DNA from: a virus
Reading direction: 5' to 3' (one strand)
IMG/VR virus record: IMGVR_UViG_3300046000_007074
Location: 1-41,768 of that record
DNA length: 41,768 nucleotides
The position numbers and the translations under genes were made by a program. Positions 22,387 through 28,166 of this stretch are shown here, one piece after another. The notes below the pieces were generated by a model, which was given only the letters and a program-made list of their open reading frames with translations, made no database searches and had not been told where the DNA came from. Every line of letters starts with the position of its first letter. Positions within the stretch are counted from its first letter, which is position 1.

Positions 22387-24873
22387 TCAGGCTCCGGCTT
22401 CGATTCGGGGGATGATGGCGACGACGGTCGCGGGGAGCGGGTTGGCCTGGCGCACGAAGACCCGGCCCTGCGCGTTCCATGACGGGTCTATCAGCACCCG
22501 CTCGTCGCCGGTCGCCAGCATCGTCGGATAGCCGAACGTCTCGCCCTGCCGCTCCTTGATGTCGACGAGGCGGTCCGAGGTCGGCCCGGCGCTGAGGCCT
22601 CGGGTATCCTTCACCCGCAGCACCACCTCGCCGATGACCTTCTGGCGGCCCTGCAGGGTCGGTTGCCCGGCCTCGATGTTCAGCGTCTCCAGATCGCAGG
22701 TGTAGGCCAGCCCCGCCACCACCCGCCCGCAGGCGCGGGGCAGCGTGATCGTGCCGTTCGTGACCGTGGCCGCCGGCTGCACGGACCCGTCGCCGAGGAT
22801 CGCCAGCTCGCGGCCCTCCAGATGCCACAGGCCGCCCAGGGTCAGGGTGGCCAGCGCCCAGTCGGAAACCGCCGTGGCCTGCAGGGAGGTGTGCGGCGCC
22901 GTGTCCAGCGTGGCGCTGACATGGGTCGTATCGGTGTAGGCCGTCACCGTGACCGTGACCTGGTTCTGCCCGCTGCGCAGGATGTACTTCGCGCCGACCG
23001 AGGCCGCGGTGAAGGGCGTGTGCCCGGCCGCCGTGACGGTGACGGTCGCGCCCGCCGTCCACGTCGCGCCGCTGAGCGCCAGCGTGTCGCCGGTATCGGT
23101 GTTCCAGCCGTTGTAGCCGACGCCCGAATCGACGCACCACGCCGAATAGACGTCGGGGAAGTAGCGGCTCGCCATGCGCTCGATGTAGCGCACCGTCTGG
23201 CCGCCCACCGTCCGCTTGACCGCGAGATAGAGGATCGTCTCGCTGCCCTCCTGCACCGTCGCCACGCTCTCGACGATGCCATCGGTCACATGCCGCGACC
23301 AGGCGTAGACGTCGTGCTCCTTCAGGTAGGTGAAGCCCAGCAGGACGCCGTCGGAGCGCACGCACCAGATGATGCCGTCGGGATCGCGGGCATAGGCCCA
23401 TTCCTCGATGGTCTTGCCCTCGAACAGGTGGCCGGCGAGGATCGAGAGGTTGCGCCCCTGGAAGCTGTCGGACGCGAACTCATAGGCGACATCGCGGACC
23501 TTCTTGCCCGAGGCCGTGACATAGACCGCGCTGCTCTCGGTGCCGATCGGCGGCACGTCGGAGACGCCCTCGTAGCTCTGCGGCTTCACGGAACAATTGG
23601 CCGGGGTCATCACATCGGCCTGCGCGCCGGCCCAGGCCTTCCACACCGCGCCCGAGGTCCAGACGAGCAGGACGTTGAGGCTCAGCAGGTGGCGAATCTC
23701 GTTCACTTCGCGCGAGGCGATGGTGCGGGTGATGGCGTCGCTGTCCTTGGACGGCGTGCTGGTGTTCATGTTGTTGAAGGCGGCCGAGGCCGACGAATAG
23801 AGCGTCTGCGGCTTCTGGTTGGTGCGGGCGTACCACTGCCGGCCCTCGTGGTAGGTCGAGCAGCCGGGATATTTGTCGGCGGCGTCGAAGGGGTTGCGGT
23901 CCTCCGGCGGCGTGTCGGAGGTGTCCGGCGCCACGGTGGTATCGGTGAAGCCCGTCGCGCCGTCGCCGGACCGGCCGATGAAGCCATAGATCCCGTTCTT
24001 GCCCTTGTAGACGTTGTAGGAGTTGGCGCCGGCGGCGTTCGTCCAGGTGATGGTCGAGGTCTGGATGCCGGACGAGACCGAGGCCGAGGCAACCGATTCC
24101 TCGCCGGTTTCCTCGCTGACGGCCGTGACGACATAGTCGAAGCTTGAGCCGGCCGAAGTGGTGGCCAGCGCCGTCGGCGGCTGCTGCGTCGGGGCATAGG
24201 TGATGGCGGTCAGGGACCATGAGGCATGGCCGCTGCGGGTCAGGTTGCGCGGGGCGTAGGACGGGTGGGTGAGCGTCATCGTGTCGGCGCTCTGCACGAA
24301 CTTCAGGCGCGGCAGATCGGCCGTCACGTAGGGCGTCGCCAGGGTATAGAGCCGGGCCACCGTGCCGCCCGAGGTCCAGGTGCCGTAGCCCGAGGTGTCG
24401 ATGCCCACGGCAAAGGTGGTGGCGCTGAGGGCCGTGATGGCGAGCTGGCGGCGGTTGATCTCCGTCATGCCCGCGACGTCCTGGATGAACACGGTATCGC
24501 CGGTCGAATAGCCGTGCGCGCCCGAAGTGCTGACCACCCCGGGATTGTTCCGGGTGATGCCGGTGATCGTCACGGCGCTTTCGAGGACGTGGCCGCCGTC
24601 CTTGATCACGCGCATCTGCTGGTCCCCGAACTCCAGCACGTAGGTCTGCTCGGTGTTGAAGGCGAAGGGCACCAGCCGCGGGCGCTTGGCGGCGTTCAGC
24701 ACCTGCCCGACAAAGCCCGTCCCTGCCCGGGTCGAGGCGCCGCCGAACGGGTGGATGAAAAAATTTAGACACGTGGCCAAGCCAACTTGATATTTTGCCA
24801 AGTCAACTCTGCCGTGCAGAGCGGGTGATAATTCCCCAGCGGCAAAACTTGGAAGAACTAGCGGCATCGGCAT
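22387..24873 (-). CDS. Tail nozzle/tubular protein (T7 gp12-like) with a recoded 5' end
   Basis: The 828-residue beta-rich protein matches the tail nozzle proteins of podoviruses: LVLPSFAAGELSPALHGRVDLAKYQVGL at the N-terminus, QTYVLEFGDQQMRVIKDGG, an FCCH-type insert (ITRNNPGVVSTSGAHGYSTGDTVFI), a fibronectin-like region (TSAGSSFDYVVTAVSEETGEES) and the C-terminal VIGEVVLRVKDTRGL plus GYPTMLATGDERVLIDPSWN. Codons 1 to about 41 (24873 to about 24752) are much more AT-rich than the rest of the gene, with codons rarely used here (TTA, AAA, ATA, AAT, TTT). Its start lies next to the HNH gene at 24972, and a stub of the old start remains at 25464-25476. Confidence 0.85.
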   Translation of the reverse strand: MPMPLVLPSFAAGELSPALHGRVDLAKYQVGLATCLNFFIHPFGGASTRAGTGFVGQVLNAAKRPRLVPFAFNTEQTYVLEFGDQQMRVIKDGGHVLESAVTITGITRNNPGVVSTSGAHGYSTGDTVFIQDVAGMTEINRRQLAITALSATTFAVGIDTSGYGTWTSGGTVARLYTLATPYVTADLPRLKFVQSADTMTLTHPSYAPRNLTRSGHASWSLTAITYAPTQQPPTALATTSAGSSFDYVVTAVSEETGEESVASASVSSGIQTSTITWTNAAGANSYNVYKGKNGIYGFIGRSGDGATGFTDTTVAPDTSDTPPEDRNPFDAADKYPGCSTYHEGRQWYARTNQKPQTLYSSASAAFNNMNTSTPSKDSDAITRTIASREVNEIRHLLSLNVLLVWTSGAVWKAWAGAQADVMTPANCSVKPQSYEGVSDVPPIGTESSAVYVTASGKKVRDVAYEFASDSFQGRNLSILAGHLFEGKTIEEWAYARDPDGIIWCVRSDGVLLGFTYLKEHDVYAWSRHVTDGIVESVATVQEGSETILYLAVKRTVGGQTVRYIERMASRYFPDVYSAWCVDSGVGYNGWNTDTGDTLALSGATWTAGATVTVTAAGHTPFTAASVGAKYILRSGQNQVTVTVTAYTDTTHVSATLDTAPHTSLQATAVSDWALATLTLGGLWHLEGRELAILGDGSVQPAATVTNGTITLPRACGRVVAGLAYTCDLETLNIEAGQPTLQGRQKVIGEVVLRVKDTRGLSAGPTSDRLVDIKERQGETFGYPTMLATGDERVLIDPSWNAQGRVFVRQANPLPATVVAIIPRIEAGA

Positions 24874-24971
24874 GGAAGCCTCTCATGCAATCCGCTAAAG
24901 TGCGGAGCCGAGCGGCGCGCCAACGCCAACCCGGCCCCTGACCTAAATCGCTGAAAGGAGCGACCCCGGCT
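24874..24971 (+). promoter_or_regulatory. Leader of the first HNH cassette
   Basis: This 98-bp stretch separates the divergent starts of the nozzle gene (minus) and the HNH gene (plus). Toward the HNH gene it reads GCCCCTGACCTAAATCGCTG, AAAGGAGC, with the GGAG 14 bases from the ATG. The second cassette's leader (26680-26783) has the related GCCCTAACCACCACCGCTG, AAACGGAGC, so the two leaders are homologous. On the minus strand GAGAGG serves the nozzle start. Confidence 0.55.
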
Positions 24972-25466
24972 ATGTCCAAGTCTCACAACATTTACGCGAA
25001 ACGCAATAGCCCTCTGACTGAGCGGCTTTCCCTTTATGCCAAACCAGACCCCAGCGGCTGCACGATCTGGACGAAGAGTCGAGACCGTTTCGGGTATGGC
25101 TACGCCAGCGTTAAGGGCCGTCGCATCTACATGCATCGATTTGCTTGGGAGACGGTTAATGGCCCGATTCCCGCCGGCCTTTGCGCCCTGCACAAGTGCG
25201 ACAACCCGCCTTGCTGCAATCCAGACCACCTGTTTATCGGAACGCGGCGCGACAACAATGCTGACAAGATGGCCAAGGGGAGACAGTCGCACGGGGAACC
25301 CCATGCGCATCGCGGCTCCAGTCATGGCCACGCCAAACTGACGGAGCAGGATGTGATTGCGATCCGACGCGACTGGATTTCTCACGAATCCGTTGCCGCG
25401 CGCTATGGCGTGAGCGCGTCTCTGATCTCGATGATCAGGGCTAGAAAGATTTGGACGCATATCTAG
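24972..25466 (+). CDS. HNH homing endonuclease (cassette 1)
   Basis: The 164-residue protein is on the plus strand inside a minus-strand operon. The HNH_3 core reads GRRIYMHRFAWETVNGPIPAG, LCALHKCDNPPCCNPDHLFIGTRRDNNADKMAKGRQSHGE (about 48-110), with the paired His and Asn-Pro-x-His-Leu motif of phage homing nucleases. A C-terminal HTH (LTEQDVIAIRRDWISHESVAARYGVSASLISMIRARKIW) would recognise DNA. It is clearly related to the HNH protein at 26784-27266. The stop sits in CTAGGCGA, shared by both cassettes, and the displaced 5' end of the nozzle gene lies immediately beyond. It probably cuts phages lacking the insertion. Confidence 0.93.
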   Translation: MSKSHNIYAKRNSPLTERLSLYAKPDPSGCTIWTKSRDRFGYGYASVKGRRIYMHRFAWETVNGPIPAGLCALHKCDNPPCCNPDHLFIGTRRDNNADKMAKGRQSHGEPHAHRGSSHGHAKLTEQDVIAIRRDWISHESVAARYGVSASLISMIRARKIWTHI

Positions 25467-25476
25467 GCGAACCATC
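25464..25476 (-). pseudogene. Stub of the original nozzle-gene start
   Basis: On the minus strand ATG GTT CGC CTA G starts at 25476, sharing a base with the stop of the tail adaptor gene (TGATG), the coupling used all along this operon. It runs four codons (M-V-R-L), then enters HNH sequence. The working nozzle gene now starts about 600 bp further on. I infer this is the original start codon, cut off by the HNH insertion. Confidence 0.65.
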
Positions 25477-26119
25477 AGCGATACCCGCCGAGCCAGCCGA
25501 AGGGGGCGTCTTCGTAGCCGCGCACGGCCAGCGATTCGGAGACCTGAAAGCGATCCGTCGACGACTGTTCGTTGGCGCTGTCGGCCATGGCTTTCTCGAC
25601 GCGGTCCTGTGCGTGGCGCGCGAGGCGCTCGGCAAGGTCGGCCTTCTGGGTGATGGCGTGCGCAGTGGCGGCGGCGAGGCAGTCCACGAATGCCAGGATG
25701 AAGGCCGAACTGAATTGCGCCGGATCCGTGACCCGCTGGCCGAAGACCGCCGTCGTGATCGAATCGTTGCAGAGCAGGAACTGATTGACGCCGTCCGACG
25801 CGATCTCGAACGGGATCGCCAGGCCGTTCCAGCGGTGCCAGTACCAGCCGCCCGCGAAGTCGAGCCGCCACATCTTCAGGCAGTCCGCCGGGTAGGCGTA
25901 GCTGTAGGCCCAGCGCGCCGGCGGCGTCCCCGAGGACGACAGGGCGCGCGTCACGCGGTTGAAGTTGAAGTCGAGCATGCCCTGCAGGTCATCGCGGATC
26001 GTCGCGTACCAGAGGTTGATCTGGCGGGCCTCGGTGCTGTTCTCGGTCAGGTCGGCGATCGTGGCGCGCGTGCCGAGCCGCGAGAGCGCCATGTTGGCGA
26101 TGTCGACGTCGGTGGCCAT
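25475..26119 (-). CDS. Tail adaptor protein (T7 gp11-like)
   Basis: The 214-residue protein matches the head-tail adaptor/tubular protein A family: VDIANMALSRLGTRATIADLTENSTEARQINLWYATIRDDLQGMLDFNF, then RWAYSYAYPADCLKMWRLDF and FSSAFILAFVDCLAAATAHAITQ, ending in a helical tail. It joins the portal to the nozzle. ATG 26119 overlaps the holin stop by TGATG, so tail and lysis genes share one transcript. Its neighbour, the nozzle gene, is now separated from it by the HNH cassette. Confidence 0.85.
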   Translation of the reverse strand: MATDVDIANMALSRLGTRATIADLTENSTEARQINLWYATIRDDLQGMLDFNFNRVTRALSSSGTPPARWAYSYAYPADCLKMWRLDFAGGWYWHRWNGLAIPFEIASDGVNQFLLCNDSITTAVFGQRVTDPAQFSSAFILAFVDCLAAATAHAITQKADLAERLARHAQDRVEKAMADSANEQSSTDRFQVSESLAVRGYEDAPFGWLGGYR

Positions 26120-26679
26120 CAGGAATCCCTCTTGGCAACGGCCGCGCGCAGGGTGACATCCTTCGCCGCCGAGCCGCTTGAGCTGCCCAGCCAGTAGGAC
26201 AGGACCATGCCGTAGCCGGTGGCCGCCGAGCCGCCGAGCAGCAACAGCGCCTCCTTCATGCCCTCCGGCACGTTCTTCGCGAACAGCATGTAGACGAAGC
26301 CGGCGAACACGACGATCGCCAGCACGGACACGATGGGCGAGCCCCAGGCGATGGCGCTGCCGGCCTTGGCAAGCTCGACGGTCTGCGAACGGGCGGACGC
26401 CACATCGGCGATGCGGGCGTTCAGTTCCTCAAGCGCCTGCCGGTTCATCTGAGCTTCATGGTTCCGGGCGTCGGCCTCGGCTTGAAGAACGGCCATCTTG
26501 AATTGAAGCGCAAGGTTCGGATCGGCGGCAACCGCCCGCTCGATGCCGTCGGCGTCCGTGGTGCCGAGAATGTCCTGCGCGATGCCGGTGATCTTCGATA
26601 CGGCGTTGCCGGTCTTGTCGCCCATCAGCCAACTAGCGACTGTTGGAGCAATCCCCAATAACAGCGGAATCAGTGGCAT
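26119..26679 (-). CDS. Holin of the 3TM gene-transfer-agent type, 5' end recoded
   Basis: The 186-residue protein matches the GTA 3TM holin family: MPLIPLLLGIAPTVASWLMG first segment, DADGIERAVAADPNLALQFKMAVLQAEADARNHEAQMNR middle, then membrane helices at about 115-134 (PIVSVLAIVVFAGFVYMLFA) and 144-165 (ALLLLGGSAATGYGMVLSYWLG). It releases the endolysin by permeabilising the inner membrane. Codons 1-15 encode nearly the same peptide as the stub at 27263-27310 but with different synonymous codons, the mark left by the HNH insertion between 26680 and 27266. Confidence 0.85.
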   Translation of the reverse strand: MPLIPLLLGIAPTVASWLMGDKTGNAVSKITGIAQDILGTTDADGIERAVAADPNLALQFKMAVLQAEADARNHEAQMNRQALEELNARIADVASARSQTVELAKAGSAIAWGSPIVSVLAIVVFAGFVYMLFAKNVPEGMKEALLLLGGSAATGYGMVLSYWLGSSSGSAAKDVTLRAAVAKRDS

Positions 26680-26783
26680 CGCTGGCCTCCATATTCAATT
26701 TTCAGTAGAATAAAGGCGGGCTCAAGGAGCGTCGGAAGCGCCCCATTGAGCCCTAACCACCACCGCTGAAACGGAGCAGGTAG
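26680..26783 (+). promoter_or_regulatory. Leader of the second HNH cassette with an 8-bp hairpin
   Basis: The 104-bp gap between the divergent holin and HNH starts contains the perfect inverted repeat GGGCTCAA (26718-26725) / TTGAGCCC (26746-26753). It could stop read-through or control the HNH gene. Downstream, GCTGAAACGGAGC places GGAG about 8 bases before the ATG. This 3' part is related to the leader of cassette 1. The AT-rich part next to the holin start (26690-26714) supplies its new upstream region. Confidence 0.55.
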
Positions 26784-27266
26784 ATGGCTGATACGACTCC
26801 TAGCAAATGGCACGTCACGCGCAATTGGCCCGCAGTAGAAAAACTGGCGCACTACTCCGCGCCCGGACGAAACGGGTGCGTTCTGTTCACTGGAACACTC
26901 GACAGGGATGGCTACGGACAACTCACGATCCTTGGGAGAATCCGTAAAGCCCACCGCCTTGCATGGGAGGTGGCGAACGGACCCATCCCGGCCGGCCTTG
27001 TTGTGTGCCACGCCTGCGATGTCCCGAGGTGTATCAACCCCAACCATCTCTTTTTGGGGACACAGGCAGCCAACATGGCGGACAAGGGCGCGAAGAAGCG
27101 GCAGCCACATGGCGAGGCCCAATACATGGCGCGGCTGGACGCTGCACAAGTGCGCGCGATCCGCGAGGCCGCAGGCACGATGCGCTCCATTGGAGAGGCG
27201 CATGGCATCGCGCCCCAGACCGTCTGGAAAATCCGCAAGAGGATGATTTGGCGCCATCTTGACTAG
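26784..27266 (+). CDS. HNH homing endonuclease (cassette 2)
   Basis: The 160-residue plus-strand protein is a homologue of the HNH gene at 24972: KAHRLAWEVANGPIPAGLVVCHACDVPRCINPNHLFLGTQAANMADKGAKKRQPHGE (about 55-112) matches position by position, with the same NGPIPAG and NP-x-HLF-x-GT signatures. A C-terminal HTH follows (LDAAQVRAIREAAGTMRSIGEAHGIAPQTVWKIRKRMIW). It lies between the endolysin and holin genes, and its stop forms the CTAGGCGA junction with the old holin 5' end. It probably spreads by cutting cassette-free holin genes. Confidence 0.93.
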   Translation: MADTTPSKWHVTRNWPAVEKLAHYSAPGRNGCVLFTGTLDRDGYGQLTILGRIRKAHRLAWEVANGPIPAGLVVCHACDVPRCINPNHLFLGTQAANMADKGAKKRQPHGEAQYMARLDAAQVRAIREAAGTMRSIGEAHGIAPQTVWKIRKRMIWRHLD

Positions 27267-27310
27267 GCGACGGTCGGCGCCAGGCCGAGCAGCAGGGGGA
27301 TGAGCGGCAT
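27263..27310 (-). pseudogene. 15-codon stub of the original holin start
   Basis: From ATG 27310, sharing a base with the endolysin stop (TGATG), the minus strand encodes MPLIPLLLGLAPTVA and then TAG made at the HNH junction. The functional holin at 26679 begins MPLIPLLLGIAPTVA, the same peptide but for Leu10/Ile. Most of the codons differ at synonymous positions (for example CTC/CTG, CCC/CCG, CTG/TTA, GCC/GCT). So this is the severed original 5' end, still carrying the operon's coupling signal. Confidence 0.9.
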
Positions 27311-27852
27311 CAGAGGTTCCTTTCGTAGGCCGCCGCCATCAGGCCGGCATAGCGATCGACCTGCCCCAGCCCGTTGTAGCGAGCGGCGAAGGCGTGCCAG
27401 TCCTTGCGGCGCAGCGCGTCGACCAGCACCGCGTCGGCGTTGATGAAGCGCACGAAGGCGTCGAGCTGGCCCGCGTCCGTGCCCATCGCCTCGCGCATGG
27501 CCTGCGGGCTCTCGTAGCCCAGCGTCCGCCAGTGAAAGCCCATGATCTGATAGGCGCCCCAGCTCGTCGACTGGATGGCCGCGCCCTCGTCCAGTGCCGC
27601 GGCTTCGTCGAACTGCACCCACGCCTCGCCCTGGTTGCGCGCGGCCAGCGACGGCGTCCACGCACGGCACGAGATATGCGGGTGGCTCTCATTGAACTGG
27701 TAGCCGGTGAGCTTGCCGAACCAGTGGGCCTCGAGCCGGATGATCGGCAGCCCGTCGCGAAAGCCGCGCCCGCTGCTCTCGACCTCGGCGATGGCCTTCA
27801 CGGCGGCAATCTCGACGCCGATCCGGTCGGCCGCTGACTGATAGTCGATCAT
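27310..27852 (-). CDS. Endolysin, N-acetylmuramidase family (PF11860)
   Basis: The 180-residue enzyme cleaves peptidoglycan at the end of infection. Family marks: AAVKAIAEVESSGRGF with catalytic Glu25, GLPIIRLEAHWFGKLTGYQF, TSWGAYQIMGFHWRTLGYESPQAM (about 95-118), and ALRRKDWHAFAARYNGLGQ near the C-terminus. It has no signal peptide, so export depends on the holin. Its stop couples to the holin stub, while the intact holin is now 630 bp downstream. It overlaps the upstream lysis-associated gene by 4 bases. Confidence 0.9.
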   Translation of the reverse strand: MIDYQSAADRIGVEIAAVKAIAEVESSGRGFRDGLPIIRLEAHWFGKLTGYQFNESHPHISCRAWTPSLAARNQGEAWVQFDEAAALDEGAAIQSTSWGAYQIMGFHWRTLGYESPQAMREAMGTDAGQLDAFVRFINADAVLVDALRRKDWHAFAARYNGLGQVDRYAGLMAAAYERNL

Positions 27853-28166
27853 GGATTGCCCCTCACTGGCGGCGGCGGGTTGCGGTTCTCCACCATTCGA
27901 TCAAGCTGCCGCCCTACGCGCTCGACCTCTGCCTTGGTGGCCTTGCTGTCGGCGCGCAGCTCGATCAGCGCGGTTTTCATGGTGTCGAGCGTCTCGGTGG
28001 CCTTTTCGTCGCGCATCTCGCCCTTGTCGACACGCTGAGCGAGCGCCTTGATGTCGGACTGCAGCGCCCCCCAGGTCGTGGCGAGCGCGATCACACCGAT
28101 AGCGATGGTGATGTAATTGCCGGTTGAAACCCGGTTCTCGAACTTCGGCGATTCCATCTCGCTCAT
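27849..28166 (-). CDS. Membrane-anchored coiled-coil protein of the lysis cassette
   Basis: The 105-residue protein has one transmembrane segment near residues 17-36 (GNYITIAIGVIALATTWGAL) followed by a long coiled coil (SDIKALAQRVDKGEMRDEKATETLDTMKTALIELRADSKATKAEVERVGRQLDRMV). This N-in, periplasmic coiled-coil layout is that of an inner-membrane spanin (Rz-like) or accessory holin. ATG 28166 is preferred over GTG 28172 for spacing to GAGGG. Its stop overlaps the endolysin start, so the lysis genes form one block. Confidence 0.7.
   Translation of the reverse strand: MSEMESPKFENRVSTGNYITIAIGVIALATTWGALQSDIKALAQRVDKGEMRDEKATETLDTMKTALIELRADSKATKAEVERVGRQLDRMVENRNPPPPVRGNP

Follow-up and report, generated by a model that had tools for sequence, protein, structure and literature searches.

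Two genes in the window, by which we mean the whole stretch of 41,768 nucleotides of IMG/VR virus record IMGVR_UViG_3300046000_007074, are each separated from their native start by a gene for an HNH nuclease, and in both the body of the gene is headed by a substitute 5' end that encodes almost the same protein in other codons. We think it likely that each such unit is an end-replacement homing element, made of a nuclease and a respelled copy of the gene end that this nuclease cuts off. The idea gains weight because the arrangement recurs: in a second gene of the window, in a 3' version at two other loci, and at several further HNH loci. Loci are designated below by numbers preceded by L.

In the first case, the nuclease gene HNH1 (26784..27266, plus strand; 160 aa, an HNH_3 domain followed by C-terminal helices) lies between an endolysin gene and a holin-like gene, both on the minus strand. 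The endolysin, an N-acetylmuramidase (27310..27852; Pfam PF11860, E = 1e-48; endolysin in PHROG), is the putative left homology arm. Its stop codon TGA (27312-27310) overlaps the old start codon ATG of the holin-like gene (27310-27308), a TGATG coupling that is also present, uninterrupted, in L002-L005, L012 and L013. From this start runs the stub, the displaced native 5' end of the holin-like gene (27263..27310, minus strand), whose 15 codons (27310-27266) encode MPLIPLLLGLAPTVA; the junction TAG comes next and shares a CTAG overlap with the stop codon of HNH1, which abuts the stub. The working holin-like gene (26679-26119, minus strand, 186 aa) begins with MPLIPLLLGIAPTVA. Its codons 1-16 (26632..26679) form the recoded replacement 5' end, recognised by an excess of synonymous changes and by a spelling shared only with the contig of L056, and the remainder (26119..26631), with 88-93% amino acid identity to L002-L005, is the native body and the putative right homology arm. 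A GGAGG ribosome-binding site, identified by its sequence at 26686..26690 on the minus strand, precedes the re-started gene, and we read it as the substitute for the lost TGATG coupling.

The initial annotation had described an HNH gene between the old start and the body of a holin gene, a stub that keeps the coupling to the endolysin and ends in a junction TAG, and a working copy that opens with the same 15-residue peptide in other codons. The coordinates are correct and both features of the stub can be read in the sequence; between stub and working copy there is one Leu/Ile change, 11 of the 14 same-residue codons differ, and 30 of 45 bases are identical. The gene is where that annotation placed it, but its identity as a holin does not stand: the protein belongs to PHROG 1544, of unknown function, a comparison with Pfam matched no family, and the name is a guess from gene position.

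The two spellings can be compared with those of relatives that lack the insertion. Searched with the holin-like protein, IMG/VR yielded 54 loci; the uninterrupted relatives comprise the six with the endolysin TGATG junction and about 20 with other upstream sequence, and all of them have a stub-like spelling. Over the same 45 bases, the stub has a mean identity of 86% to 27 uninterrupted relatives (34-42 bases), the working 5' end has a mean identity of 66% (27-32 bases), and the relatives are 84% identical among themselves. With L005, the nearest uninterrupted relative, as reference, synonymous differences affect 10 of the 15 codons that can be compared among codons 1-16 of the working gene, versus 33 of 148 in the remainder of the gene (Fisher p = 7e-4). 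The third codon positions of the stub are all G or C (GC3 = 1.00). Full randomisation of the codons by local usage yields about 6 differences between stub and working copy (95% 3-10), and 11 are seen: the difference in spelling is not due to chance. When IMG/VR was scanned for the recoded spelling, a single other contig appeared, that of L056, with a related HNH gene at the same site, and the scan found no HNH-free phage with that spelling; a DNA search of INPHARED with the locus returned endolysin similarity only. Uninterrupted relatives with the recoded spelling, which would have spoken against the polarity proposed in the initial annotation, were looked for, and all were stub-like. That polarity, with the stub as the native end, is thus right, because the uninterrupted relatives are spelled like the stub and the recoded spelling occurs elsewhere only in the contig of L056; for the same reason, the element does bring its own substitute 5' end, as had been suggested.

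A second case, which the initial annotation of the first did not mention, lies at 24760-25475, 1.8 kb away. Upstream is the gene of a 214-aa tail protein (25475..26119, minus strand; PHROG 394, tail). The stub that follows, ATGGTTCGCCTA (25464..25475, minus strand), holds the start codon region only and runs into the stop codon of HNH2 (24972..25466, plus strand, 164 aa; PF13392, E = 8e-14), a nuclease 43% identical to HNH1 in alignment. Beyond it are the recoded replacement 5' end of an 828-aa tail gene, codons 1-38 (24760..24873, minus strand), and the native body of that gene (22387..24759, minus strand; PHROG 376, tail, E = 1e-201). Since all that is left of the native stub is its start codon with a few more bases, the displacement rests on the uninterrupted locus L005, in which the 214-aa and 828-aa tail genes abut without an HNH gene and the sequence at the position of the stub reads TGATGGCGATGCCG. 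The 828-aa protein is 97% identical to that of L005 over its first 300 amino acids, and 27 of 36 comparable codons among the first 38 differ synonymously, against 43 of 302 in the following 312 codons (p = 8e-14). In the 38-codon tract, any two of thirteen relatives are 0-17 synonymous codons apart; the window is 20-27 apart from them, and the protein differences are similar in the two comparisons. Trp38, the same in 13 of 13 relatives, is Phe in the window, exactly at the end of the recoded tract. The sequence TCGCCTAG, present at both stub junctions, was considered as a terminus of the element and dropped: in the first case its GTCGCC is native and its TAG is the stop codon of the HNH gene.

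The respelling may be selected or imported. With the 38 tail-gene codons randomised by the phage's own usage, about 16 differences from L005 are expected (95% 11-21) and 27 are seen; the GC3 of the tract is 0.42, against 0.41 predicted by the forced choice of a different synonymous codon. Both the excess over codon saturation and the GC3 are consistent with selection for difference. Import from an unseen donor phage with AT-rich codon usage would give the same picture.

Both nucleases are well above the Pfam cut-off of 24.8 bits for PF13392 (HNH_3), with 56.4 bits for HNH1 (E = 2e-15) and 51.4 for HNH2. The structure model of HNH1 has a pLDDT of 83 and three C-terminal helices; its best match in the PDB is I-HmuI (1u3e; probability 0.98, E = 5e-3), at a low TM-score of 0.34, and a PDB sequence search with the HNH profile gave no match. 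We regard HNH1 as a sound HNH_3 protein; I-HmuI is the structure nearest to its model, at that low TM-score.

Other phages carry related elements. At L056, the same holin site, next to a different endolysin, holds an HNH gene 46% identical to HNH1, a decayed stub and a working copy whose 5' end is identical to that of the window at 38 of 45 positions, versus at most 32 of 45 for the uninterrupted relatives. The leaders, from the HNH start to the gene start, are similar in the first case of the window, L056 and L057, each with a hairpin (26715..26758 on the plus strand of the window, z = -3.1; L056:2915-3000, z = -1.9; L057:810-892, z = -2.9); the leader hairpin of the second case is weak (z = -0.9). 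These three hairpins adjoin a TAGAAT or TATAAA motif. The motif might be a promoter, and the hairpin a possible regulator of the nuclease. Given the likeness of L056 to the window in all three, nuclease, leader and recoded end seem to be transmitted together.

The mirror case is found in L039 and L045, where the HNH gene (L039:4378-4836, L045:1428-1886) lies near the 3' end of an endolysin gene. The last codons of the working endolysin are respelled and AT-rich, and beyond the HNH gene lies the displaced native 3' end, which agrees with L026, L038 and other relatives that are uninterrupted. The start of the displaced fragment coincides, in L039, with that of the recoded tract, and identical junctions are repeated in L045. 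At the same site, L040 and L041 are HNH-free: their uninterrupted endolysin gene is native except for 20 nt of the recoded tract of L039, CGGAAAATAATAAATGGGAC (L040:4867-4886, L041:4867-4886). The two contigs are identical in this region, and the patch may be a single event; located at the inferred cut site, it is likely to be a resistance allele left by partial conversion.

We surveyed 230 loci with this HNH family and sufficient flank, the input including five loci from a search of bacterial genomes with HNH2, for translated duplicates in both flanks of at least 11 residues and 60% identity. Such duplicates were found at 12 of the 230 HNH loci. When flank pairs were shuffled, 1 of 1143 had one, and among 489 control ORFs of these loci there were 4, including three ordinary repeats in which the DNA identity exceeds that of the protein. 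The matches of L175 and L098, which are of low complexity and may be false, and the short N-terminal match of L113 were set aside, and the first case of the window, L056, L039, L210, L257, L232, L185, L244 and L239 were kept; L106 and L083 come from the first version of the survey. Ten cases, six of them 5' and four 3', form a composition set; in every one GC3 is lower in the working end than in the stub (means of 0.49 for the working end, 0.73 for the stub and 0.77 for the gene body), and the distance from stub to working copy is 434-824 bp. Near uninterrupted relatives prove the polarity only in the two cases of the window and in L039; at the other loci, it is deduced from GC3 and from which copy joins the gene body. 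The only uninterrupted relative found for L232 was L302, at 57%, too distant to settle the spelling, and none of the 65 relatives of L244 is near enough in DNA for a comparison of spelling.

Some loci of this collection have features of their own. The duplicates that flank L257:3682-4140 are identical at 17 of 17 residues and different at 12 of 17 codons, and the downstream one hits a stop after 19 codons. In L106 (gene-oriented 1416-2263), the recoded start of a lysozyme is preceded, on the right side of the HNH element, by the coding end of a further frame (SDWPRAFTPEPGKASD...); this element may hold parts of two genes. The HNH genes of L066, L082 and L145 adjoin genes with like motifs at their 3' ends (WGVATGFFASASD, WGCVTGFFASVDDA, NGIVTGWFASAADS), which may mark a site of repeated insertion.

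The initial annotation held that homing nucleases with recoded target ends are rare. That description has to be qualified: in this HNH family they recur at about 5% of the sampled loci, and the principle is known from other systems (PMC7282813, PMC3630166). For the sampled loci, 5% is probably a floor, since stubs decay, as the second case illustrates. With such a rate, it is unsurprising that the 16 HNH loci of cultured phages yielded no convincing stub; the cases are IMG/VR contigs, none of them isolates in hand. INPHARED contains 811 records with this HNH. A wider test for AT-rich gene ends beside HNH genes, with uncurated ORF starts, gave a weak result (p = 0.06 for 5' ends, p = 0.003 for 3' ends).

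The sequences establish how the units are built, which end is native, that the arrangement recurs and that synonymous change is in excess; a mechanism can be proposed. The HNH nuclease would cut a naive gene near one end, around codon 15-17 in the holin-like gene, and repair would copy the element from a donor, with native sequence on both sides as homology arms: for elements like the first case, the upstream gene and the stub on one side and the gene body on the other. The insert would consist of the HNH gene, the leader, the ribosome-binding site and the synonymous respelling of the severed gene end, and thus the protein would be restored without splicing. The respelling would take the restored gene out of the target range of the nuclease, and would also remove the homology needed for recombination between stub and working copy; without shared homology, repair could not copy the rescue end minus the nuclease. 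That the HNH protein cuts the native site, and that the element moves by homing, we infer from sequence. The respelling at the insertion point suggests that the recoded end resists its own nuclease; the restored gene probably works and the target is probably gone, as the initial annotation had proposed. In the first case, the recoded tract spans the part of the gene between its start and the insertion point, to within about one codon, with native sequence on both sides of the insert, and the geometry of this case and of L039 is as would be expected if the insertion point were the cut site.

A tract that continues beyond the stub, as in L210 (about 84 codons) and L244 (about 75 codons), leaves room for co-conversion, and the most serious rival explanation is indeed that of a free-standing, intergenic HNH gene that homed and dragged along the gene start of a diverged donor, the spelling being plain divergence. 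Phage T4 endonucleases as a rule co-convert their flanks (PMC2988022), and the rescue ends are AT-rich as a group. However, two-sided homology would also replace the stub, and instead of donor-like spelling on both flanks we see a stub that is native up to the insertion point. In the tail gene, the synonymous distance of 20-27, against 0-17 in the natural family at equal protein distance, argues against this explanation too, as do synonymous change above codon saturation and the failure of the IMG/VR scan to reveal an HNH-free phage with the spelling of the first case. We consider it unlikely.

We give far less credit to a group I intron, with the stub and the body as exons and the HNH gene inside. 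HNH_3 nucleases can reside in phage introns (PMC10448857), and joining the stub to the body would restore the native gene; yet no Rfam intron match lies within 24000-28000 at E <= 1, the HNH gene is antisense to its host gene, and the second case is almost without a 5' exon. Moreover, the recoded start comes with its own GGAGG and has changed almost only synonymously, 14 of 15 residues being kept, and it is thus selected as protein. An assembly chimera of two related phages, conceivable for a metagenomic IMG/VR record with no known isolate, is just as improbable: two like structures occur in one contig, further cases come from separate contigs of separate samples, the HNH gene lies between the copies every time, and L039 and L045 have the same junctions. 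Coming back to end-replacement homing, we lean slightly towards its broadest form, that phage HNH_3 nucleases are widespread natural recoded-rescue drives at 5' or 3' ends, with recoding selected against self-cutting and partial homing rather than being mere imported divergence, and with the HNH-free recoded fragments of L040 and L041 as natural resistance alleles.

Among the closest known systems are two from outside phages. The WHO elements of the yeasts Torulaspora and Lachancea (Coughlan et al. 2020) home into FBA1 and supply it with a 3' end that resists cutting. What remains of the old end decays on the far side of the nuclease gene, and the restored gene is chimeric, without splicing (PMC7282813). 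The likeness lies in the position of the nuclease gene, between the working replacement end and the displaced native end, as in the first case of the window, L056, L039/L045 and the survey loci. However, WHO nucleases are intein-like LAGLIDADG proteins with a zinc finger and the phage elements have an HNH_3 domain; in yeast nuclei, WHO elements replace the 3' end of their target, a length of about 400 bp in FBA1, whereas those of phages replace 5' or 3' ends of about 12-84 codons in several genes. The phage elements work like WHO elements without being members of that family. In fungal mitochondria, the mORF hybrids of Allomyces atp6 and of Glomus atp6, atp9, cox2 and nad3 also combine an inserted C-terminus, a near-identical protein with DNA identity of 64-81%, an endonuclease ORF and a native remnant, but they concern 3' ends in mitochondria, were read as foreign C-termini, and have a LAGLIDADG endonuclease in the atp6 example (PMC3630166).

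Within phages, PMC2988022 and PMC10448857 describe free-standing endonucleases and HEG islands, with HNH or GIY-YIG genes beside essential genes as here; the donor alleles resist by sequence difference, and in T4 SegF, SegG and MobE co-convert flanks (PMC2988022). Recipients of free-standing endonuclease genes are taken to be resistant, the cut site being replaced by donor sequence (PMC12724721). A term search of PMC2988022 and PMC10448857 brought up no case in which a gene end is displaced as a stub and paired with a synonymous replacement; the literature covered was open-access, and an earlier phage report may exist outside it. Synthetic recoded-rescue drives are also alike, with a nuclease in the target gene and a synonymous remainder that restores function (PMC8996256; TARE, PMC7046741), and their recoding avoids cutting and limits partial homing (PMC8996256, PMC7046741); they are engineered CRISPR constructs, whereas the phage elements are natural.

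The principle was thus already known in yeast and fungal mitochondria; what is new is the HNH nuclease, the phage hosts and the use of 5' as well as 3' ends. It lets a coding region accommodate a nuclease gene with neither intron nor intein, the severed end being duplicated and respelled. The known examples that we found concern 3' ends only, and phages, by adding both gene ends and many related nucleases, point to a general strategy. The finding accounts for some of the gene ends beside HNH genes that are rich in AT and unusual in their codons, and for some spurious short ORFs at such places. As short pieces of DNA, the phage elements are easy to test, and the parallel with synthetic recoded-rescue drives includes their weakness, since partial conversion leads to resistance alleles; the phage elements could therefore be a natural experiment on drive and resistance.
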